A DNA stretch of 64,000 nt from Maribacter sp. HTCC2170 (lineage in GTDB: Bacteria > Bacteroidota > Bacteroidia > Flavobacteriales > Flavobacteriaceae), in NCBI RefSeq assembly GCF_000153165.2, contig NC_014472.1:493501-557500 (forward strand), read 5' to 3'. The translations under genes were made by a program, and so were the position numbers. Shown here in pieces: positions 10,696 through 53,265 of the stretch. Position 1 is the stretch's first letter; each line of letters opens with the position of its first letter. The notes under the pieces were generated by a model. That model was not told where the DNA came from. It was given only the letters and a program-made list of their open reading frames with translations, and made no database searches.

Positions 10696-10723
10696 TTTTT
10701 AACCTAAGCTAATTCAAACTAAA

Positions 10724-13246
10724 ATGAAAAGTATACTCCTAACGCTAGCTCTTTTGATTTCCTGCTCCGTTGCTGCGCAAGAAAATCTTGACCTTAACTA
10801 TTATCTTCCTCAAAACGTTACTTATAACACAAACATTCCGACACCTAAAGAGGTAATAGGACATGAAGTTGGTGAGTGGCATGTTACACATGACAAACTC
10901 ATGTTTTATATGCAGACCCTCGCTCAAAAAAGTGATCGGATAACCATTGAGACAAGAGGTAAGACCTTCGAGGGCAGACCAATATTGTTGCTAACTGTGA
11001 CATCACCATCAAATCATTTGAATATTGAGAAAATAAGGCAGGACCATATTGCACTAACTGAAAATGGGGCCAGTTCTTTACCAACAAACTCAATGCCCAT
11101 TGTTGTTTACCAAGGGTTTTCTATCCATGGTAATGAGCCTAGTGGTGCCAATGCGGGATTGGCATACGCCTATTATTTGGCAGCTGCCCAAGGTCCAGAA
11201 ATAGATAACCTTTTAAACAACATGGTTATTTTAATGGATCCTTCCTTCAATCCTGATGGTTTACAACGTTTTGCCTATTGGGCAAATACAAACAAAAGCA
11301 TCAACCTTGTGGCCGACAATAATGAAAGGGAATATCATGAGGTCTGGCCAGGTGGTCGTACCAATCATTATTGGTTTGACATGAATCGTGACTGGTTGCC
11401 AGTACAATTGCCAGAGAGCAGGGCTAGAATAAAGAGTTTTCATAAGTGGTTGCCTAATATATTAACCGACCATCATGAAATGGGAACTAATTCAACTTTC
11501 TTTTTTCAGCCAGGTGAGCCAACAAGAGTACACCCCTTGACCCCAAAAATGAACCAAGAGTTGACTGCAGAGATTGGAAAGTACCATGCAAAAGCGCTGG
11601 ACAAAATTGGGTCATTATACTATTCTGAAGAAAACTATGATGACTATTACTATGGAAAGGGTTCTACCTTTCCAGATGTTAATGGTAGTATCGGTATTTT
11701 ATTTGAGCAAGGAAGCTCCAGAGGGCATATTCAAGAAACTGAAAATGGGCTTTTGACATTCCCTTTCACAATACGCAATCAGTTTACCACAGCTTTGTCT
11801 ACAATTGAAGCTGCCAAGAATATGCGTGAAAAAATCTTGAACTATCAGCGCGATTTTTACAAAAATGTAAGAGCTGAAGCTGCTAAGAGCAGAACAAAAT
11901 CGATTGTTTTTGGAGATAATAAAGATGGAGCCAAAGCCTGGCATTTAGCCGAAATTCTAAAAAGACAGAAAATAAAATTCAACGAATTGGCGAACGATGT
12001 CGCAATTGGAGGAAAAAAGTATAAGAAAGGTAATAGTTACGTGGTTCCAATGAATCAAAAGAACCACCGACTTATTAAAGCCATGTTCGAAAAAAGAACT
12101 ACATTTTCGGACAGTCTTTTTTATGATATTTCAGCTTGGACTTTTCCTTTAGCATTCAACGTTGATTATTCTGAACAAAGTTCTATGACAAATGCTGGAG
12201 CTGAAATTACCAATTTTGAGCCATTGTCCGGTAATGTAAGCGGAAAAAGCAGTTATGCATATTTGTTTGAATGGAATGAATATTATACCCCTAAAGCTTT
12301 GAACAAAATAGTAGAAAAAGGTTTAAGGGCCAAAGTGGCCAAATCACCTTTTAGTTTGGAGGGCAAACAATATGATTACGGTACAATAATGGTCCCGGTT
12401 CAGAATCAAGAGTTGAATGCTGACGATTTGTACACTTTTCTAAAAGATGTAGCCAATGAAAGTATGCTTAAGATAATATCTGTTGGTACTGGACTTACCA
12501 AGGGTATTGATTTGGGTAGTAATGATTTTGATCCTATTAAAAAACAAAAGGTTGCCATACTTGTCGGTAACGGAATAAGATCATATGACGCAGGTGAAAT
12601 TTGGCATTTGTTTGATACACGTTACAACATGCAGTTAACCAAACTTGATGTGGCCTATTTAAGTAATGTGGATTTAAACAAATATACAGATTTGATTATT
12701 CCTAGCTCATGGGGAGGTGGACTATCAAAAAAGTATGCCGAAAAGATAAAAGAATGGGTTAAAGAAGGTGGCACATTGATTGGGTATAGAAGTGTTGCTG
12801 AGTGGCTTAATAAGAACGAAGTTATTAAGTTGAAGTTCAAAAAAGATACTTTAGTTGCTAAAAACATATCCTTTGCTGAAAAAGGAGATTTTAATGGTGC
12901 TCAAGTAACTGGTGGCGCCATTTTTGAAGCTAAACTAGATCTTTCACATCCCATAAATTATGGCTACAAGAATGATAGACTTGCCATGTTCAGGAACTCA
13001 AATGTTTATATTGAAGCTGATAAGAACAGTTATAACAATCCTATTCAGTATACCAATAGTCCTTTGTTGAGCGGATATATTTCAGAGGAAAATTTGGAGC
13101 TCTTGAAAAATTCAGTGCCCTTTCAAGTAAAGAGAGTTGGGAAAGGAAGGGTCATCGTATTTACTGACAATACTAATTTCAGAGCTTTTTGGTATGGGAC
13201 AAACAAATTATTAATGAATGCCATATTTTTTGGTAAGATGATGTAA
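10724..13246 (+). CDS. M14 family zinc carboxypeptidase, large secreted form
   Basis: An 840-residue exported metallopeptidase. A signal peptide (MKSILLTLALLISCSVAAQ) is followed by an M14 catalytic domain at about 45-380. Zinc ligands HGNEPSGANA (HxxE, near 138) and LTDHHEMGTN (distal His) are present, as are FDMNRDW for substrate binding and the probable catalytic Glu in GILFEQGSSRG. The C-terminal 400 residues include a ThuF/glutamine-amidotransferase-like Rossmann segment (KVAILVGNGIRSYDAGEIWHLFD) common in these proteins but of unknown role. It probably trims peptides in the periplasm or outside the cell. Its stop is 1 bp from that of the convergent acyltransferase, and a hairpin (TAAGCT/AGCTTA) spans both stops. 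Confidence 0.93.
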   Translation: MKSILLTLALLISCSVAAQENLDLNYYLPQNVTYNTNIPTPKEVIGHEVGEWHVTHDKLMFYMQTLAQKSDRITIETRGKTFEGRPILLLTVTSPSNHLNIEKIRQDHIALTENGASSLPTNSMPIVVYQGFSIHGNEPSGANAGLAYAYYLAAAQGPEIDNLLNNMVILMDPSFNPDGLQRFAYWANTNKSINLVADNNEREYHEVWPGGRTNHYWFDMNRDWLPVQLPESRARIKSFHKWLPNILTDHHEMGTNSTFFFQPGEPTRVHPLTPKMNQELTAEIGKYHAKALDKIGSLYYSEENYDDYYYGKGSTFPDVNGSIGILFEQGSSRGHIQETENGLLTFPFTIRNQFTTALSTIEAAKNMREKILNYQRDFYKNVRAEAAKSRTKSIVFGDNKDGAKAWHLAEILKRQKIKFNELANDVAIGGKKYKKGNSYVVPMNQKNHRLIKAMFEKRTTFSDSLFYDISAWTFPLAFNVDYSEQSSMTNAGAEITNFEPLSGNVSGKSSYAYLFEWNEYYTPKALNKIVEKGLRAKVAKSPFSLEGKQYDYGTIMVPVQNQELNADDLYTFLKDVANESMLKIISVGTGLTKGIDLGSNDFDPIKKQKVAILVGNGIRSYDAGEIWHLFDTRYNMQLTKLDVAYLSNVDLNKYTDLIIPSSWGGGLSKKYAEKIKEWVKEGGTLIGYRSVAEWLNKNEVIKLKFKKDTLVAKNISFAEKGDFNGAQVTGGAIFEAKLDLSHPINYGYKNDRLAMFRNSNVYIEADKNSYNNPIQYTNSPLLSGYISEENLELLKNSVPFQVKRVGKGRVIVFTDNTNFRAFWYGTNKLLMNAIFFGKMM

Positions 13247-44792: not shown

Positions 44793-44956
44793 CTCAAAAA
44801 AATCACTCAGAACCAGACAATAAAACTGTTAAAATTCCGTTTTACAAAAAAAGCAATAATTTCCTATTGCTAATCTTTAGTTAGCATTTAGAATTATATA
44901 ATAAAAGATTTTTATACCGAATTATTTGAGTTAGTAATTTTTTGAGTTAGTTAGTT

Positions 44957-44985
44957 AAAACCGGTGGGAGCACCGGTTTTTTTTT
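44957..44985 (+). terminator. Strong intrinsic terminator
   Basis: Perfect 10-bp stem AAAACCGGTG / CACCGGTTTT, GGAG loop, nine T. Confidence 0.9.
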
Positions 44986-45075: not shown

Positions 45076-45106
45076 GTAAACTATTATCGGGGATTACTCT
45101 TTTAAG
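45076..45106 (+). promoter_or_regulatory. Degenerate operator-like site upstream of the AraC-type gene (copy D)
   Basis: GTAAACTATTATCGG at 45076-45090 matches the first half-site of the three operators at 46604, 46984 and 53069; the second half is poorly kept (ends TTTTAAG) and 3 bp closer. It lies 62 bp before the ATG at 45169, which would allow autoregulation. Uncertain. Confidence 0.35.
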
Positions 45107-45168
45107 TTTTTTTTAAGATTTGAACTTCATTTATTGATTAACTTGAAACGAGCTAATTCATCAATCAA

Positions 45169-46596
45169 ATGAGGCATATAGGAATCTTAATCACATTCTT
45201 TTTATTATGCATAAAAGCCTATCCTGCCGTACCTATCGAACATAAGGAGAGTTTTTATAATAATAAAATCTTACCCAATTTTATATTTTCAACAACTTCA
45301 AACTTATTTGAGGAAGATGAGGTCTATGGTCAATCACCAATTTTAGACAATGGAATAACAAAAATTTCTTTAGGATTAAACACATTTTCGTTAAACGTCA
45401 TTGAGCCTACATTGTTCTCAAATAATACCTCTGCGGCGAATATTTCACAATCAATCACAAATGATTATCCACCAAGAATTAACCTTTCGTCATTCTTGTA
45501 TCTATATGTGGCTTTAATTGGCTTTTATATTGCCGCCGTTCTACAATTCAATAAAAAAATAGATCGCATCGCAAAAATATTGATAAGTTGTTTCATATTC
45601 ATTCACTCTATATTCATTCTTCATATTTGTTTGAATATGACCAATTATCACTATCAATATCCTCATTCATTCAGGATGTCCACCTTATTTTCATTTCTTT
45701 ATGGTCCCCTGTTATATTTCTATTTCAAGAGAATCACCCAACAATATCAATTTAAAAAAGAAGATCTATTGCATTTGACCCCAACACTTCTTTTGTTATT
45801 TGTGTTGTTCCCTACCTATATTTTGCCTTCTGACGAAAAACTAACCTTGATGATAGAAAGGGTTTCTCTGGGTAGAAGTGTAACTGATTTGGCCATCATC
45901 GTTTTTAAACTTTTGTCATTGACTATTTATGGTTACTTCATTCGCAAGGTATATTTGAATTCCAAATCAAATAAAGGGTTGGGCAAACAAAACAGATTAT
46001 GGCAATCAAATCTTTATACAATTCATTTCATTTATATAGGCAGCTATGCGGCATATGGAATTTTACTAAGTAACGGCATAACCTCTGGATTTTTATATCA
46101 TTTACAAGTAATATTAATGGCATTAATGGTAATGTATCTTGGATATTCCGCCAATGTTCAACCTAATGTTTTTAGCGGAATTTTCACTCTTAGCGATAAG
46201 TATTTCTTCAAATACGAAAAATCAGGACTTACAAACAGCTTGTCCCAGGAATTAAAAACCCTCTTATTGGATTTATTGAACAAAGAAAAAATATATAGGG
46301 AGAATAATATCAATCTGGAAAAATTAGCGAACAGATTGAATACGACCAGACATAATGCTTCACAAGTCATTAATGAGCATTTTGATATGAATTTCCATGA
46401 ATTGATCAATAAGTATCGAATAGATGAAGCAAAAGATATTTTTAATAGGGACTACCAAAGAAACCTGAATATAATTGACGTTGCATATGAAGTTGGGTAC
46501 AATAACAAAGTGACTTTCAACAAAGCATTTAAAAAAGATACCAACTTAACCCCCAGCGAATACCAAAGAGTTGCTCTAAAAGCAACAACAATGTAA
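45169..46596 (+). CDS. Membrane-anchored AraC-type transcriptional regulator
   Basis: 475 residues in three parts. A signal-like N-terminus leads to an extracytoplasmic stretch (about 20-100). Then come seven or so hydrophobic helices (about 104-330; first INLSSFLYLYVALIGFYIAAV). The C-terminal 105 residues are an AraC DNA-binding domain with two helix-turn-helix units: INLEKLANRLNTTRHNASQVI and IIDVAYEVGYNNKVTFNKAFKK, ending LTPSEYQ. It should sense a signal at the membrane and act on DNA directly. Its location, next to a susCD operon and direct-repeat operators, makes it the likely local activator. Confidence 0.92.
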   Translation: MRHIGILITFFLLCIKAYPAVPIEHKESFYNNKILPNFIFSTTSNLFEEDEVYGQSPILDNGITKISLGLNTFSLNVIEPTLFSNNTSAANISQSITNDYPPRINLSSFLYLYVALIGFYIAAVLQFNKKIDRIAKILISCFIFIHSIFILHICLNMTNYHYQYPHSFRMSTLFSFLYGPLLYFYFKRITQQYQFKKEDLLHLTPTLLLLFVLFPTYILPSDEKLTLMIERVSLGRSVTDLAIIVFKLLSLTIYGYFIRKVYLNSKSNKGLGKQNRLWQSNLYTIHFIYIGSYAAYGILLSNGITSGFLYHLQVILMALMVMYLGYSANVQPNVFSGIFTLSDKYFFKYEKSGLTNSLSQELKTLLLDLLNKEKIYRENNINLEKLANRLNTTRHNASQVINEHFDMNFHELINKYRIDEAKDIFNRDYQRNLNIIDVAYEVGYNNKVTFNKAFKKDTNLTPSEYQRVALKATTM

Positions 46597-46603
46597 AAAA
46601 TCA

Positions 46604-46637
46604 GTAATCATACATCGGAAACGTAAACGTTTATAAG
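46604..46637 (+). promoter_or_regulatory. Direct-repeat operator, copy A
   Basis: Half-sites GTAATCATACATCGG and GTAAACGTTTATAAG, 19 bp apart start to start. A -7-like box TTATTTTG follows at 46665-46672, 27 bp after the operator, the same layout as in copies B and C. A GGAAA...TTTCC inverted repeat brackets the second half-site. Confidence 0.65.
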
Positions 46638-46679: not shown

Positions 46680-46806
46680 ACTACTATAATGTAAAGCAGC
46701 TCTGAAAACTTACTTGTATTGTATTAGAAAACTTCTTTTTAATAATTAGAGTGACGTTTGAATTAGTCATCAAACATGTTCAGGGCTGCGCTTTATATTT
46801 ACTTTC
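46680..46806 (+). ncRNA. Orphan leader-like structured element, copy A
   Basis: About 120 nt downstream of operator A and its -7 box. A long-range stem pairs GCAGCTCTGA (46696-46705) with TCAGGGCTGC (46780-46789), extended by AAAGC / GCTTT. Inside is a small hairpin TTTGA / TCAAA. It is closely similar to copy C and more distantly to the susC leader (copy B), but no gene follows within 390 bp. It could be a small RNA or a relic leader. No T-run terminator is visible. Confidence 0.45.
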
Positions 46807-46983
46807 ACTCCTCTAAAAAATCAGCTAATCACGGCACTAATCACTTGAGTCCATCTAAAATGACTTTGAATATTTTAGTTCAAATCGCTTTCAAATCACT
46901 GCAAATCAAATATTTAAACTAACTACTACGCCACAAATAATATAACATAAGGGACTCCTTCTGTTATAAAAGGTAAATTAAGA

Positions 46984-47017
46984 GTAAACATTCATCGGAA
47001 AAGTAAACGTTTATAAG
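46984..47017 (+). promoter_or_regulatory. Direct-repeat operator, copy B, of the susC promoter
   Basis: Half-sites GTAAACATTCATCGG and GTAAACGTTTATAAG, 19 bp apart. A -7-like box TTTCTTTG stands at 47046-47053, 28 bp after the operator and about 145 bp before the susC ATG. No TTG at -33, consistent with an activator-dependent promoter whose activator sits against the -33 region. Confidence 0.7.
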
Positions 47018-47059
47018 TCTTTCCCAAAATTATGTTAAGAGGATGTTTCTTTGACCCGA

Positions 47060-47198
47060 ATGACTAATTAAATGTTGACAGCTCTATTGTAAATACAATA
47101 TGAATACATCTTATCAAAATGTAATCATAGATTGAATCTCTATTCAAATTTAGGCTGCACAAAAGTCACTTCATAACTAACTCATTAAAATTCTAAGT
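47060..47198 (+). promoter_or_regulatory. Structured 5-prime leader of susC, copy B of the repeated element
   Basis: Leader of about 138 nt between the inferred transcription start and the susC ATG. CAGCTCTA (47079-47086) can pair with TAGGCTG (47151-47157) with one bulged base, the same long-range stem as in copies A and C. The inner hairpin reads ATTGAAT / ATTCAAT-type, again base-paired though its letters differ. A regulatory role, for example sRNA-controlled translation, is inferred. Confidence 0.5.
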
Positions 47199-50100
47199 AT
47201 GAAAAAAAAATGTATTTGGGTGTTTATGCTTTATTTAATTGGATTGTCCTCAGCATACGCACAAGAAAAAACAGTTTCCGGTAATGTAACGGATCAGGCA
47301 GGCGTACCCTTGCCCGGTGTGAACATTCTAATAAAAGAAACTACAACAGGTATCCAAACTGATTTTGATGGCAACTATGCCATACAAGCAAGCCAAGGTC
47401 AAGTTCTTGTCTTTTCCTATATAGGGCAAAAAACAGTTGAGGTTACCATCGGGGCAAGCAACGTAATTAATATACAAATGGATGAGGCAGCAGAATCGCT
47501 TGAAGAGGTTGTTGTCACCGCTCAGGGTATTAGGCGTGAGAAAAAGGCATTAGGTTATGCCGTTACTACATTAGACGGAGAAGATGTCGCCAAAAGGCCT
47601 GAAACTGATGTTGCCCGTGCATTATCTGGCCAAATCCCCGGTGTAAATATTCTTGGTGGTAGTGGTCTTGCAGGTAGTGGAACCAATATTACAATTAGAG
47701 GTTTCTCAACAATGACAGGAAGCAACCAACCACTAATTATTGTTGATGGTGTTCCGTTTTCAAATGCCACAAACGAGACAAGTACCTTTTCTACAAGTGA
47801 ATCTGGGAACAATTCAGCTAGTAGATTGTTGGATTTAGACCCTAATAATATTTCAAATTTAAGTGTTTTAAAAGGTCTAAGTGCAACTGTTCTTTATGGC
47901 GAGCAAGGTAGGAACGGTGTTATTCTTATAACCACAAAAAGTGGCTCATCAAATTCAACACAAAATAAGCTTGAGGTAACTGTGAACTCATCTTATTACA
48001 TAGAACAAATCGCCTCTTTGCCTGATTATCAAGACAGATATGGTGGTGGCTGGCAACAAAGTAGAGGAAAAGCCTTTAGTAATTGGGGTTCTGAATTCAC
48101 CACACCTTATGAGCAAATATTACATGTTTATTCGGGAAATGCTTACAGTTCTGTTCAGCAAGGTGGAGGAAATTTTAACGCCTCATTCCCACAATTCGCC
48201 GGTGTAACAACATATGAGTACAAGCCTTATGACAGTGTTAAGAATTTCTTCAATACTGGTTACACAGCCGTTAACAATATTAATGTCACAAAGTCAACCG
48301 AAAATGCCAGCTTCAACTTGAGTTATTCGAATAGTGACCAAAAAGGGTTTACGCCAAACAACACCCTTAGAAGAAACAATTTCAGCGTTGGTGGAACAGC
48401 AAAATTATCCAACAAGTTCACTTTTAGTGGCACCATGAATTATGTGAATACCGATAAAAAAAATCCACCAAACGCCGCAAGTACAGGATCTAGTAATGTC
48501 AGTTCTGGGGGATCAGGAATATTTGCAAACGTATTGTATACTCCACGTTCAGTTGATCTTATGGGACTCCCGTTCGAAGATGACCAACATAGGAGTGTTT
48601 ATTATAGAACAACCAATAGTATCCAAAACCCAAGATGGACAGCGGAAAATGAGATTGATGCGGAGATTACCGATAGAGTGTTTTTCTCTATGGCTGGCAC
48701 ATACAAATTCAATGATTATCTGTCCGCGACCTGGAGATCGGGTTTCGATGGTTATAATGAAACATCTTCATTCAGTGTGAACAAAGGGGGTATATATCTT
48801 CCCGATGGTTTGTATTACGAATCTAGAAATACCGGAAAAATTTGGGATCACTCGCTTCTAATAAATCTTTCAAAAGATTTCAGTGATAACTTCAATCTGT
48901 CATTTGATGCCGGGTTCAACTCTAGAAGAAACACTTTCAACTCTTCCAGTGTTCAGTATGACAAGCAATTGGTCTATGGTTCATTTTTTGCCAATAATTT
49001 CGAGGACAAAGTAGCAACAGACTTATTTCAATCACAAGAAAACGTTTTTGGTGCTTTTGGTTCAGCTACATTGGGATATAAGAATTTTGCTTATTTGAAT
49101 ATTGCCGGTAGAAACGATTGGGCTTCTACACATGAAACAGGCAACAATTCATTGTTTTATCCTAGTGCCAGTTTATCATTTGTTCCAACCTCGGCATTCT
49201 CTGGACTTAAGAGTAATAACGGGTTGAATTATCTTAAACTGCGTGTCGGCTACGGAAGCTCCGCAAATTTTGCAGATCCTTACGTCACCAGAGATAGATT
49301 AGGTGTTTCTGCAAAAGCATGGCTAGACGCAAACGGAAATGCAGTCAACATTAATGGTAGCCCTGTCAATATAAATGATAGTGGAATCAATCGCCTAGGA
49401 AATCCAAACTTGAAGCCTGAGCTGGTCACAGAGGTAGAATTAGGTCTTGAATTAAAAGCCTTTAAAAATAGAATAGGACTTGAAGCAAGCGTCTATTCAA
49501 AAGAAGCAACCGACCAAATTCTCGATAAAAGACTGGATCCGTCAAGTGGTTATACAGTTACAGCGATAAATGCAGGTAAATTAAAAACTGAAGGGATTGA
49601 AGTAGGATTTAATGCCATTCCTGTTAGAACTGAGAATTTTCAATGGGATTTTATCTTAAACTATGATGCTTACGAAAGTATTGTAACGGAATTACCAGGT
49701 GGTGAAGAAGATGCATTATTCTTGTCTGGTCCTTTTTCCAATTTAGGGAACTTCGCTATTCAAGGGAAACCATTTAATGTAATGCAAGGGGTATTGGTTC
49801 AGAGAGATGCTGCGGGCAACCCAATTGTTGGAACTGATGGACTTTATCTAACAGAAGATGAGCTAGGCATCATCGGAGACCCCAATCCAGATTGGCGCGG
49901 GAGCTTCATTAATAACATCTCATATAAAGATCTAAGCTTTTCTATGCAATGGGATTACACCCATGGAGGCGATATGTATTCCGCTACCGCAAATACCATT
50001 ACCATAAGAGGTTTGGCCGGAGAAACTGATTTTGATCGATCAATTCCTGTTGTTGCAGCAGGTGTAAAACAAGATGGATCTGTGAATGATATCCAAATTA

Positions 50101-50411
50101 CAGCGAATGACCAATACTGGGAAAATTATGGACAAGATGAGTTTAAGGTTTACGATGCAACACATTTAAGATTAAGGGAGGTCTCACTTTCTTATAGCTT
50201 ACCTAAGAAGGCCTTAGAAAATACTCCGTTTGGCAACATAACTTTTTCTGCAACAGGCAACAATTTATGGTTTAAGGCTTTCAATTTTCCTGACTCCATA
50301 AATTTTGACCCAGCTATTTCCAGTGAAGGAGTAGGAAATTCACGGGGGTTTGATTTACTGACAGGACCAACTGCCAAAAGGTATGGTTTATCTGTAAGAG
50401 CGTCATTTTAA
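47199..50411 (+). CDS. SusC/RagA family TonB-dependent outer-membrane transporter
   Basis: A 1070-residue TonB-dependent importer that works with the SusD-like lipoprotein encoded 21 bp downstream. Signal peptide to about 22 (SSAYAQ); carboxypeptidase-D-like domain (about 26-105: VSGNVTDQAGVPLPGVNILIKETTTG in part); the plug (about 112-250, with EEVVVTAQGIRREKKALGYAV, SGQIPGVNI and LKGLSATVLYGEQGRNGVILITTK, all in part); then a 22-strand barrel ending in aromatic RYGLSVRASF. Its substrate is unknown: no glycosidase, sulfatase or peptidase gene is linked. Transcribed from the operator-B promoter. Confidence 0.96.
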   Translation: MKKKCIWVFMLYLIGLSSAYAQEKTVSGNVTDQAGVPLPGVNILIKETTTGIQTDFDGNYAIQASQGQVLVFSYIGQKTVEVTIGASNVINIQMDEAAESLEEVVVTAQGIRREKKALGYAVTTLDGEDVAKRPETDVARALSGQIPGVNILGGSGLAGSGTNITIRGFSTMTGSNQPLIIVDGVPFSNATNETSTFSTSESGNNSASRLLDLDPNNISNLSVLKGLSATVLYGEQGRNGVILITTKSGSSNSTQNKLEVTVNSSYYIEQIASLPDYQDRYGGGWQQSRGKAFSNWGSEFTTPYEQILHVYSGNAYSSVQQGGGNFNASFPQFAGVTTYEYKPYDSVKNFFNTGYTAVNNINVTKSTENASFNLSYSNSDQKGFTPNNTLRRNNFSVGGTAKLSNKFTFSGTMNYVNTDKKNPPNAASTGSSNVSSGGSGIFANVLYTPRSVDLMGLPFEDDQHRSVYYRTTNSIQNPRWTAENEIDAEITDRVFFSMAGTYKFNDYLSATWRSGFDGYNETSSFSVNKGGIYLPDGLYYESRNTGKIWDHSLLINLSKDFSDNFNLSFDAGFNSRRNTFNSSSVQYDKQLVYGSFFANNFEDKVATDLFQSQENVFGAFGSATLGYKNFAYLNIAGRNDWASTHETGNNSLFYPSASLSFVPTSAFSGLKSNNGLNYLKLRVGYGSSANFADPYVTRDRLGVSAKAWLDANGNAVNINGSPVNINDSGINRLGNPNLKPELVTEVELGLELKAFKNRIGLEASVYSKEATDQILDKRLDPSSGYTVTAINAGKLKTEGIEVGFNAIPVRTENFQWDFILNYDAYESIVTELPGGEEDALFLSGPFSNLGNFAIQGKPFNVMQGVLVQRDAAGNPIVGTDGLYLTEDELGIIGDPNPDWRGSFINNISYKDLSFSMQWDYTHGGDMYSATANTITIRGLAGETDFDRSIPVVAAGVKQDGSVNDIQITANDQYWENYGQDEFKVYDATHLRLREVSLSYSLPKKALENTPFGNITFSATGNNLWFKAFNFPDSINFDPAISSEGVGNSRGFDLLTGPTAKRYGLSVRASF

Positions 50412-50432
50412 AAACAAAAACATTAAATAACT

Positions 50433-52100
50433 ATGAGTACAAAATATAAAATATCTATAGCCATTTGTGCAATGTTTGTTCTGTTAGGCTCTTGTGAGTC
50501 GGTAGATTTAAACGTGAACAATGACCCAAATAATGCTTCACCGGACAATTCAGACGTCAATTTACTATTGAATGGTGCCATGCTGAACTTTACATCATGG
50601 ATTGGTGAAGAGGATGAAGATAACCGTGAAGGATTTCAAGCAGGAATGCAGGTTGTTAGAATGCTCCATATGTTTGGGCCTTTGTATGAAAATGCTTTTG
50701 AGCCGGGAGATTTTGATGATGTTTGGAGGCAAAGTTTTTCCGGTCACTTATCTGATATTCAGACCATTAAAAAGAATGCAATTGAAAATAATTTATCGCA
50801 TCATTTAGGGGTGGCTCAAATTTTGGAGTCCTATACGCTAACTGTTTTGGTTGATTATTTTGGTGACATCCCTTATTCAGAGGCATTCGCCGGGGCTGAA
50901 AATTTTGACGCTGCGCTGGATGATGACGCTGCTGTTTATGGTATTGCCATGTCATTGCTAGATGAGGCAATTGCAAACTTAGCACTTTCTCCAGCTTCAA
51001 GTATTTCTTCGACAGGAGATTTGTTCTACTTCGGTGATTTAGATAAATGGACCACCTTAGCAAAAACTTTAAAATTAAGAATTTACAACAATACGAGGTT
51101 GGTTGATTCTAATGCCCTAGCAGGGATAAACGCGCTTTTGGCTGATGGTGATCTTATCGATTCAGCCAGTGAAGATTTTACGGTTTTTTATGGCACCAAT
51201 TCATCCTCACCTGATATCAGACATCCTCAATTCATTAATAATTATGAAAACACTCCTAGTGGTGAGTATATGTCAATGTATTTTATGAATCTATTGGTAA
51301 ATGGTTTCGATTCCCCTGATCCAAGGACAAGATATTATATCTATAGACAGGTTGATGAATATCCTCCTGCCGATGCCCAAGGTATATTTGATTTTCCATG
51401 TTTAGCGGAAAGTTATCCTACGCATTATGTTCCCGGTGTTGACCCGTTCTGTACTTCTATCGGTGATGGTTACTGGGGTAGAATTCATGGGGATAACCAA
51501 GGTCTGCCTTCAGATTCTGACAAGATAACGACTTGGGGCACCTACCCAATTGGTGGAAAATTTGATGATGATTCATTCTCAGCAGTTACTAAATCCTCAG
51601 GAATGAGTGGTGCCGGAATTCAACCGATTATGTTATCATCTTTCGTGTACCTAATGAGGGCCGAAGCCGCCTTAACGCTAGGAACAACAGATGATGCAGC
51701 TGCAATGTTAGAAGCTGGCATTAGAGCTTCTTTAAATAAGGTTATCAATTTTGACAGTAGTATAAATAGTCCGTTGGCCGCTACAGCGACGAATATTGAT
51801 GATTATGTGAACGAAATTATAACTGATTATGGAGCAGGATCTGATGCAGAAAAACTCAATATTATTATGACGCAAGCATTTATATCATCTTGGGGTAACC
51901 CAGTTGAGGCGTACAATAATTATAGGAGAACAGGAATGCCGCTAAACTTGCAGCCAACGCAAACCTCAACACCTGGCGCTTTCATTAGGTCATTTAAATA
52001 CCCTTCTGTCGCAATAGACAACAATCCAAATATCAATCCTAAAGAAAATCAAGGTGTAAAGGTATTTTGGGATACTAATTCAACAAACTTAGATTTTTAA
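50433..52100 (+). CDS. SusD/RagB family surface lipoprotein
   Basis: A 555-residue lipoprotein that forms the lid of the SusC transporter and captures substrate at the surface. The lipobox Cys is in LLGSCES (about residue 22), followed by acidic/Asn-rich residues typical of surface export. TPR-like helices with LGVAQILESYTLTVLVDYFGDIPYSEA and LDKWTTLAKTLKLRIYNN (in part) fit the SusD-like_2 branch, often linked with peptide or non-glycan uptake as well as glycans. Follows susC by 21 bp and precedes a third lipoprotein by 11 bp. Confidence 0.94.
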   Translation: MSTKYKISIAICAMFVLLGSCESVDLNVNNDPNNASPDNSDVNLLLNGAMLNFTSWIGEEDEDNREGFQAGMQVVRMLHMFGPLYENAFEPGDFDDVWRQSFSGHLSDIQTIKKNAIENNLSHHLGVAQILESYTLTVLVDYFGDIPYSEAFAGAENFDAALDDDAAVYGIAMSLLDEAIANLALSPASSISSTGDLFYFGDLDKWTTLAKTLKLRIYNNTRLVDSNALAGINALLADGDLIDSASEDFTVFYGTNSSSPDIRHPQFINNYENTPSGEYMSMYFMNLLVNGFDSPDPRTRYYIYRQVDEYPPADAQGIFDFPCLAESYPTHYVPGVDPFCTSIGDGYWGRIHGDNQGLPSDSDKITTWGTYPIGGKFDDDSFSAVTKSSGMSGAGIQPIMLSSFVYLMRAEAALTLGTTDDAAAMLEAGIRASLNKVINFDSSINSPLAATATNIDDYVNEIITDYGAGSDAEKLNIIMTQAFISSWGNPVEAYNNYRRTGMPLNLQPTQTSTPGAFIRSFKYPSVAIDNNPNINPKENQGVKVFWDTNSTNLDF

Positions 52101-52111
52101 AAAATAGACTT

Positions 52112-52987
52112 ATGAAAAGAATTATAAAACTAATTGCATTGCCTTGTATTCTACTGGGCTTCATATCTTGTGAAGATGAAGATAAGGCCCGTATTACACC
52201 TTACGCCGATGAGACTCAGGGAGCATTCTTAAGAACTATTGACGCTGGTGGAGTAATAAATAGGACCGACATAGCTGGTTCATCTTATTCAATAACAGGG
52301 GAATTAGTAGCCGCCAGTAACGATGATGTTTCAAATGTAGAAATTATGGTTGAGTTCGTTGACCGAACCACAGATGATGATCCAGGAACAAACGATGATG
52401 AGTCGATAGATCCTGTTTTAGTTGCTTCTGCTGATGTTTCAACTTTCGTTAGTAATTCAAATGGTTTGCCAGAAACCACTTTTGATATTGGCATATCAGA
52501 TGCTACTACTGCTTTAGGTTTGGATCTTGGAGATATTGAGGGAGGTGATCAATTTCTCTTTTGGGTGGTCATAAATATGCAAGATGGCACAAAGTTCGAA
52601 AAAGGAAATAGCGGTGATAGTGTTACAGGAGAACTGTTTTTTAGTTCCCCAATGGTTTACACTGGCTCTGTAGTTTGTATTCTTCCTATGCCCCCAGCTG
52701 GAGATTGGATAATTGAAATGGTTGATTCCTATGGCGATGGTTGGGACGGAGCTTTTATAACGGCAACTATTAATGGCACTGGAACTGACTATACGGCAAC
52801 CGATTTTGGCACAAACCATACGGTTAATGTACCTCAGGGCTCATCGTCACTAATTTTCACATATACGCCAGGTAATTTTGAATCAGAACATTCATTCACA
52901 ATAAAAGCTCCTAGTGGCAATATTGTTTCAGAACAAGGTCCTGGTCCAACAGCTGGCGAAATCACTCTTAATCTTTGCAATGAATAA
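52112..52987 (+). CDS. Surface lipoprotein of the susCD operon with a DSYGDGWDGA motif
   Basis: 291 residues; lipobox Cys20 in LLGFISC followed by an acidic EDEDK, a surface-export-like signal. Residues about 35-180 form a beta domain unlike any I can name. The C-terminal 100 residues carry DSYGDGWDGAF (205-215), a Gly/Asp loop seen in various Bacteroidota extracellular beta-sandwich domains and likely to bind calcium, then a strand-rich end. Third gene of the operon. It probably binds the imported substrate at the cell surface, as SusE/SusF do. Function inferred only from position. Confidence 0.7.
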   Translation: MKRIIKLIALPCILLGFISCEDEDKARITPYADETQGAFLRTIDAGGVINRTDIAGSSYSITGELVAASNDDVSNVEIMVEFVDRTTDDDPGTNDDESIDPVLVASADVSTFVSNSNGLPETTFDIGISDATTALGLDLGDIEGGDQFLFWVVINMQDGTKFEKGNSGDSVTGELFFSSPMVYTGSVVCILPMPPAGDWIIEMVDSYGDGWDGAFITATINGTGTDYTATDFGTNHTVNVPQGSSSLIFTYTPGNFESEHSFTIKAPSGNIVSEQGPGPTAGEITLNLCNE

Positions 52988-53005
52988 ATAACATTTTAAT
53001 AGAAA

Positions 53006-53042
53006 ATGGCCATCTATAACCTCATTTTTAGATGGCTGTTTC
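53006..53042 (+). terminator. Terminator of the susCD operon
   Basis: GCCATCTA / TAGATGGC with a 12-nt loop, 21 bp after the last stop. The T tract is weak (TGTTTC). Confidence 0.6.
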
Positions 53043-53068
53043 AATTCTAGAAATAATGTAAACAAAGG

Positions 53069-53102
53069 GTAAACTTATATCGGTAATGGAAACGTTTATA
53101 AG
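53069..53102 (+). promoter_or_regulatory. Direct-repeat operator, copy C
   Basis: Half-sites GTAAACTTATATCGG and GGAAACGTTTATAAG, 19 bp apart. GGTAATG / CATTACC (53082-53088 with 53103-53109) forms a perfect 7-bp inverted repeat bracketing the second half-site. A -7-like box AATCTTTG is at 53131-53138, 28 bp after the operator. No coding gene follows on this strand. Confidence 0.65.
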
Positions 53103-53144
53103 CATTACCCAATTGAATGGAAATAGTGACAATCTTTGTATTCA

Positions 53145-53265
53145 ATTAACCAATTAAATGTAAAGCAGTCCTGAGGCCTACTCCTAAAAATATTATAGTA
53201 TCTCAGTTTTTAGAGTAATTATTTGAATTAGCTATCAAAATATTCAGGGCTGCCATTTACATAAA
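53145..53265 (+). ncRNA. Orphan leader-like structured element, copy C
   Basis: GCAGTCCTGA (53165-53174) pairs with TCAGGGCTGC (53244-53253), and ATGTAAA before it pairs with TTTACAT after it, giving a 17-bp stem with a 2-nt bulge. The inner hairpin is TTTGA / TCAAA. Compared with copy A, the G-T wobble in the stem has moved by one position while pairing is kept. It runs up to the stop codon of the convergent DUF1579-like gene, so a transcript would be antisense to that gene's end if it continued. Confidence 0.5.

Follow-up and report, generated by a model that had tools for sequence, protein, structure and literature searches.

Two paralogous structured RNAs in an araC-susCD locus of Maribacter sp. 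HTCC2170 with candidate pairing sites in the transporter and activator messages

We analyzed a 64,000-nucleotide (nt) stretch of the Maribacter sp. HTCC2170 genome (contig NC_014472.1, positions 493,501 to 557,500; the window, to which all coordinates refer) in which two orphan RNA elements, A and C, accompany a susCD nutrient-uptake operon and the gene for an AraC-type regulator. The gene order is purU, DUF4197, araC, RNA A, leader B, susC, susD, a putative lipoprotein gene and RNA C. By their sequences, A and C appear to belong to an RNA family that also acts as the susC leader in many relatives, and they probably tune the uptake system by base-pairing. The account that we favor, with moderate confidence, is that both are trans-acting hairpin-seed RNAs that share an AraC box with susC and exert feedback on susC and araC. 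Comparison across genomes provides the family, its conservation, covariation in its outer stem, conserved complementary sites in two messages, and an association between site and loop type. The family was not found in Rfam, occurs in marine Flavobacteriaceae, and would represent base-pairing control with an unusual two-partner arrangement.

RNA A (46686..46799) and RNA C (53155..53263) lie on the + strand, the same as susC, and do not overlap that gene. Three parts make up the predicted fold of each: P1, a long stem on the outside; P2, an arm in the middle; and P3, a small hairpin. The predicted folds have energies of -32.7 kcal/mol for A (z-score -5.2) and -29.4 kcal/mol for C (z-score -4.6), and none of 200 shuffled sequences was equally stable in either case. 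A covariance model assigns them 97.4 and 115.6 bits, respectively, both being among the 12 copies from which that model was built; its minus-strand matches at the same places arise as mirror images of the inverted repeat, and we excluded them from all counts. The P3 hairpin spans 46757..46774 (+) in A, with the loop ATTAGTCA at 46762-46769, and 53222..53239 (+) in C, with the loop ATTAGCTA at 53227-53234. A and C both have the outer stem and the inner hairpin (TTTGA/TCAAA) that an initial annotation of this DNA described, and the U-G pair does stand at differing positions in the two.

That annotation ascribed one conserved structure to all three copies, which stands for A and C when compared with shuffles but is weak for copy B, the degenerate element in the susC leader (47070..47166, +). 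The leader (47060-47198) has a z-score of only -0.8, with 45 of 200 shuffles at least as stable, and the 12-copy model does not match B at E 0.5. Alignment of six B leaders from relatives showed that the promoter, the transcript start and the 5' arm (roughly the first 40 nt) are kept and that the 3' half is not. On these three grounds we rejected a fold shared between B and A/C for this genome. In four other genomes (locus handles L117, L128, L130 and L167), an A-type copy coexists with a full element that serves as the susC leader and ends 14-29 nt before susC, and B therefore looks like a decayed copy. Because B does not keep the structure in the window, the idea that A and C mimic the susC leader through shared structure is left unsupported.

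Rfam searches at the gathering score gave no match in the window and only tRNAs in the loci of five relatives; a relaxed threshold added one unrelated match (E 0.82) and nothing relevant. Searching DNA with copy C gave matches in 7 of 60 genomes, including its own. The matched stretches, as far as their contigs extend, run from araC through an A-type copy and susC to a C-type copy; in G022, however, we saw no A-type copy. Across Flavobacteriaceae, the covariance model found a copy at E 0.01 in 33 of 397 genomes (own included) and in 25 of 237 genera, using strict filters with which weak matches were lost. Within the genus, 5 of 12 genomes (own included) carry copies, and a second family-wide search recovered mostly the same genomes. 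We also looked for the pattern TTATTTGAATTAGYYATCAA across 84,980 species, each represented by a single genome, and it matched 93 stretches. Eighty of these were listed, most with Flavobacteriaceae titles, and 63 of the 80 have a model match at E 6e-4; four with other titles (L138, L149, L156 and L168) have none.

The compensating changes noted initially came from three copies, too few to judge. With 51 copies, two-sided changes appear at 11 of 11 P1 pairs, 95.4% of cells are paired, and none of 500 shuffles attains any of the five measures used, in an alignment that was fitted to the model and is thus biased towards it. An unfitted alignment of 12 copies has two-sided changes at 4 of 18 pairs. 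The P3 stem and loop are nearly invariant across copies and so point to recognition rather than to covariation.

A promoter unit precedes each of A, B and C where the initial annotation had placed it, the second and third units being 84% and 76% identical to the first. A box pattern of 23 positions, with up to 2 mismatches permitted, matches at 46614..46637 (RNA A), 46994..47017 (susC) and 53079..53102 (RNA C), all on the + strand. These are the only matches in the whole genome of 3,868,304 bases, and a reversed control pattern gave none. The box is also kept before many orphan RNA copies in relatives. A variant, GTAAAC..ATCGGGG..TTAC, can be seen before araC (45076..45106, +), and a similar box stands before araC in relatives, which suggests that araC may be autoregulated.

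The first candidate partner is the susC message. The site ATGACTAATT (47060..47069, +), 139 nt before the start codon, stands directly after the susC promoter at the start of the leader and is complementary to the P3 loop of A (it is the complement of AATTAGTCAT). Within the 64 kb it has two matches, the other being the A loop itself on the other strand; at least two matches were found in 6 of 100 shuffles. In the predicted ensemble, the A loop is unpaired with a probability of 0.98-1.0. The 10-nt complement between A and susC has a predicted net energy of -5.4 kcal/mol, compared to +0.5 kcal/mol for C and susC, computed with assumed transcript ends. We used these net values in place of full RNA:leader duplex energies, which were set aside because they ignore the RNAs' own folding.

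We then compared sites and loops among relatives in 31 loci that have a definable susC 5' region and at least one other RNA in the same genome; loci without susC or without a second RNA were excluded, and four partner loci were merged within their genomes. The site TGACTA or GACTAAT is present in all 20 loci with a TAGTCAT RNA in trans and in none of the 11 without one (rule 1, Fisher 1.2e-8). Likewise, all 6 loci with an A-type loop of TAGCTAT have GATAGCT, compared to 0 of 16 others (rule 2, Fisher 1.3e-5). The site TAGCTAA or AGCTAATT occurs in 4 of the 11 loci lacking a TAGTCAT RNA, against 0 of 20 with one (Fisher 0.010); L023, L064, L070 and L071 have no TAGTCAT RNA and carry a site for a TAGCTAT RNA instead. 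None of these Fisher values takes kinship into account. The A loop of L071, TGGTCAT, was scored as not TAGTCAT; scored otherwise, rule 1 becomes 20 of 21 versus 0 of 10. In L068 the A loop reads TAGTCATT and the site is only GACTAAT.

Because both rules were derived on the 31 loci themselves, they were recorded and then applied to further genomes. Rule 1, scored by eye with L214, L217, L218 and L219-L223 left unscored, was right in 9 of 12 loci, and rule 2 in 4 of 4. Eight of the 12 (L204-L211) had a susC leader that was previously uninspected, and here rule 1 was right five times and wrong three times. The other four were all right: L212 and L213 had both halves listed earlier, outside the rule table; the L215 leader, though not its partner, was listed earlier; and L216 was new in both, with its leader fetched beforehand. 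Overall, all 24 loci that have a matching RNA in trans also have the susC site, as do 3 of the 19 that lack one. The proposal that small RNAs with susC's promoter box could pair with the susC leader is supported in sequence by the 10-nt A-loop complement and by a site that follows loop type.

The second candidate partner is the araC message. The P3 hairpin of C, TGAATTAGCT, is complementary to AGCTAATTCA in the araC leader (45151..45160, +), whose first base lies 18 nt before the start codon. The window holds three instances of this 10-mer where 0.31 would be expected: one in the araC leader, one in C itself and one in the leader of an M14 carboxypeptidase gene. The predicted net energy is -4.2 kcal/mol for C and araC, and -0.7 kcal/mol for A and araC.

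Across genomes, 35 of 48 have CTAATTCA in the 70 nt upstream of araC, as opposed to 2 of 168 control-gene leaders from the same loci (4e-27, with kinship ignored), and it starts 17-27 nt before the ATG in 29 of those 35 araC leaders. These 48 leaders come from loci picked by hand, each from a different genome, in which araC matches at 40% identity or more across over 200 residues; in L062 the second ATG was taken as the start. The count does not cover loci whose only araC is a short paralogue, for example L080 and L084-L086; those four score 5-6 nt. Predicted beforehand, CTAATTCA was found in 8 of 13 new araC leaders (L204-L207, L209-L216 and L218; L208 has no araC start in its stretch), or in 10 of 13 with one G-U pair allowed. 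G precedes CTAATTCA in 31 of the 35, C does so in L082, and A in L079, L215 and L216; in the last three, the araC site is ACTAATTCA instead of GCTAATTCA and the orphan RNA has TTAGT instead of TTAGC. Using 40-nt leaders, exact complements of at least 9 nt to the genome's own RNAs were found in 20 of 54 araC leaders versus 2 of 199 leaders of seven other genes. The initial annotation raised the possibility of a self-contained feed-forward circuit; it had the susC leader as partner but missed the araC mRNA as a second one. Because the hairpin of C fits the araC mRNA best, feedback on the activator appears at least as likely as a purely feed-forward circuit.

Several observations weigh against pairing with these two messages. 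The araC site is not present in 13 of the 48 leaders, including L074, L075 and L110, which have araC and one RNA and no susC. It is also missing from most short araC paralogues of the Allomuricauda/Flagellimonas type, where the complement is 4-6 nt, and the leaders of those loci keep P3, yet no susC site was seen in them. L017, L082 and L122 break the base-by-base match with araC. Genome-wide, a 9-nt araC-type site occurs within 34 nt of an ATG 22 times, compared to 10 for the reversed pattern; such a site is not rare, and therefore conservation, not one match, carries the argument. The leaders of the third operon gene also show complements of at least 9 nt, in 5 of 29 genomes. The three failures of rule 1 are L208-L210, which keep the TGACTAATT site and in which no A RNA was found by model or by eye. 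Finally, on an araC tree of 40 loci (L164 left out as too short, L208 and L216 not entered, states taken from the rule tables), there are six changes of RNA state and five of the susC site, and these yield only three well-supported independent pairs, of which 2.9 agree on average and none is opposite, a number too small to reach significance (sign test p 0.25). Rule 2 has only one such pair.

Some of these points fit a different function, in which the element is mainly a cis-acting susC leader, such as a ligand- or protein-sensing attenuator, with P3 as the protein or ligand site and the orphan copies as titrating decoys. Near invariance of P3 is what would be expected of a protein site, P3 persists where no mRNA site is found, and in 40 of the 107 listed copies the RNA ends 14-62 nt before the susC start. 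Such a leader does not, however, predict that the susC site should track the loop type of the other RNAs in the locus, nor does it predict the enrichment of the araC site, and we regard it as a fairly improbable account.

Of the remaining listed copies, 29 are of the A type, standing downstream of araC but not immediately ahead of susC, and 38 are elsewhere, including many C-type copies that follow the operon. A copy after araC with no susC found adjoining is seen in L074, L075, L079, L106/L214, L110, L122 and L218. Many loci share conserved flanks, with purU, DUF4197 and araC upstream and the 170-amino acid (aa) gene, hydrolase, pyrF and prfA downstream; DUF4197, for example, is 66-87% identical. 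The SusC proteins encoded between these flanks often match the window's SusC at 38-50% identity in their first ~250-390 residues and at ~25% (24-29%) thereafter. This pattern is seen in L061-L064, L070, L073, L077, L078, L102, L104 and others, with conserved flanks wherever these were seen; closer cases are L090 (80%) and L140 (88%). For Allomuricauda/Flagellimonas-type loci (such as L080 and L084-L086), the flanking genes were not found in the stretch fetched. Together, these comparisons make the operon between the RNAs look like an exchange site, where the flanks are shared, with the RNAs surrounding exchangeable cargo.

Such an arrangement could also arise if A and C were DNA homology blocks that flank an exchangeable susCD cassette, conserved through recombination and with any RNA function secondary. 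Conserved flanks around diverging SusC in many loci, and loci with one RNA and no susC, agree with this idea. Recombination homology would not require P1 to keep pairing while its letters change, though, and many orphan copies keep the promoter box, so that we consider it unlikely. The initial annotation had named a lack of covariation among more copies, and decayed susC fragments next to orphan copies, as outcomes that would refute it. Covariation does appear, and beside orphan copies we mostly found full-length, diverse susCD matches. One exception is L206 (Maribacter litopenaei), in which susC and susD match in several pieces, suggesting a broken operon.

These results bear on the initial annotation's own alternative, that A and C are leaders left after the loss of other susCD operons. 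Full copies do serve as susC leaders in relatives, B in the window looks like a decayed copy, and some loci have araC and one RNA and no susC. Nevertheless, many genera have orphan copies that retain stem and loop, and these sit repeatedly in the same two positions, behind araC and behind susCD, a recurrence that the annotation had proposed to look for with a covariance model. This origin is very unlikely as a general account. Because of that recurrence, often in a conserved locus with variable cargo, the orphan copies look maintained.

We therefore return to trans-acting hairpin-seed RNAs and outline how they might work. An AraC-type regulator, probably membrane-bound, would recognize the shared box and switch on araC itself, RNA A, susC and RNA C. 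A and C would be transcribed as structured RNAs of about 110-140 nt, each closed by P1 and presenting P3 with its 8-nt loop. The A loop ATTAGTCA could then pair with the first ~10 nt of the susC mRNA. Since this site begins the message, direct blocking is less likely than a change, of either sign, in stability or in the folding of the leader. The C hairpin TGAATTAGCT could pair with the araC mRNA 9-18 nt before the start codon. Ribosomes load there, and the expected effect would be repression, with less translation of araC. Because araC, A, susC and C share the box, the outcome would be negative feedback on the activator together with coupled adjustment of the transporter. Here we infer RNA production and exact ends, pairing in cells, the identity of the box as an AraC site, the membrane location of the regulator, and the sign of effects.

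A bolder extension, which we offer tentatively and think rather doubtful, is a two-RNA address code. In this scheme, a fixed scaffold would use the loop letters AGTCAT or AGCTAT to address the transporter and activator messages of one locus, and the two loop types would trade positions from one lineage to another, the targets changing to match and the cargo being replaced wholesale. If true, the code would put an incoming susCD operon under the same ready-made control.

Four protein-coding genes of the locus, all on the + strand, are as follows. araC (45169..46596) encodes a 475-aa regulator with a C-terminal AraC-type helix-turn-helix (Pfam HTH_18, E 5.9e-16, and HTH_AraC), and its N-terminal half looks hydrophobic on visual reading of the sequence. 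susC (47199..50411) encodes a SusC/RagA TonB-dependent receptor (TIGR04056, 561.8 bits) and is followed by a susD-like lipoprotein gene (50433..52100; SusD-like_2, E 1e-40). The third operon gene (52112..52987) encodes a putative lipoprotein (Lip) that had no match in protein family searches. Its leaders in L019, L065, L066, L080 and the window contain sites that resemble the araC or susC sites. RNA C is followed by the 170-aa gene and an alpha/beta hydrolase gene on the opposite strand.

Two other regions of the window deserve mention. At 10707-10724, the M14 zinc carboxypeptidase gene (Pfam PF00246) is preceded by AGCTAATTCAAA, a 12-nt complement of the C hairpin located 17 nt before the ATG, and its mRNA is a possible third partner. 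In the 3' untranslated region (UTR) of DUF4197 (44922-44984, before araC), TTATTTGAGTTAGTAATTTTTTGAGTTAGTTAGTTAAAA stands ahead of a terminator-like hairpin, CCGGTG..CACCGG, and a T run. This element resembles P3 and has matches in 15 of 60 genomes, its own included. With its GAGTTAG repeats, the region is a possible source of a 3' UTR-derived small RNA (sRNA). TAACTCA, which is complementary to these repeats, occurs before susC in the window (47176-47184); 20 of 52 susC leaders have it in the 60 nt ahead of the start codon, versus 0 of 182 control leaders.

In the literature cited here, sRNA control of SusCD uptake concerns gut Bacteroides, whereas the present locus is from marine Flavobacteriaceae, and it provides comparative evidence for two mRNA partners within one locus, including the transporter's own activator. 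Given how short the loops and sites are, pairing is directly testable by exchanging a few bases. The locus also constitutes a natural experiment in keeping regulation while the transporter is exchanged.

In searches of the open-licence PMC literature, none of the listings named such an RNA, and the closest known systems differ in several respects. Rfp18 of Flavobacterium psychrophilum resembles A and C as a structured flavobacterial sRNA, one stem-loop of which is predicted to pair with metalloprotease and adhesin mRNAs; the account consulted describes no link to araC or susC (PMC9723704). DonS-type RNAs of Bacteroides are 78-128 nt long and control susC homologues as cis-antisense RNAs encoded divergently to susC (PMC7366714), but A and C are on the strand of susC, outside the gene, and are not antisense. 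The FopS sRNAs of Bacteroides thetaiotaomicron are reported as 14 paralogous members of about 65-70 nt that have canonical promoters, are bound by RbpB, and pair with the 5' part of susC-like mRNAs, using their 5' end at the translation start region (PMC11697453). Like FopS, A and C are paralogous Bacteroidota RNAs, and the conserved complementarity seen by sequence comparison suggests possible pairing with the 5' part of a susC mRNA. Unlike FopS as described there, A and C are about 110-140 nt long and closed by the long stem P1, and their complementary segment is a hairpin loop rather than the 5' end. In addition, the susC site lies 139 nt ahead of the start codon, with only the araC site near a start codon, and A and C stand beside an araC-susCD locus, share their box with susC, and have the activator mRNA as a second likely partner. 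For sRNA feedback on the activator mRNA of the same locus, the closest functional parallel is InvR of Salmonella, although this is another RNA from another phylum and paired paralogues with separate partners are not mentioned in the portion of that work drawn on here. InvR is a locus-encoded sRNA with an Hfq-linked target; AraC-like proteins switch it on, and it pairs at the ribosome binding site of hilA (PMC11925239).

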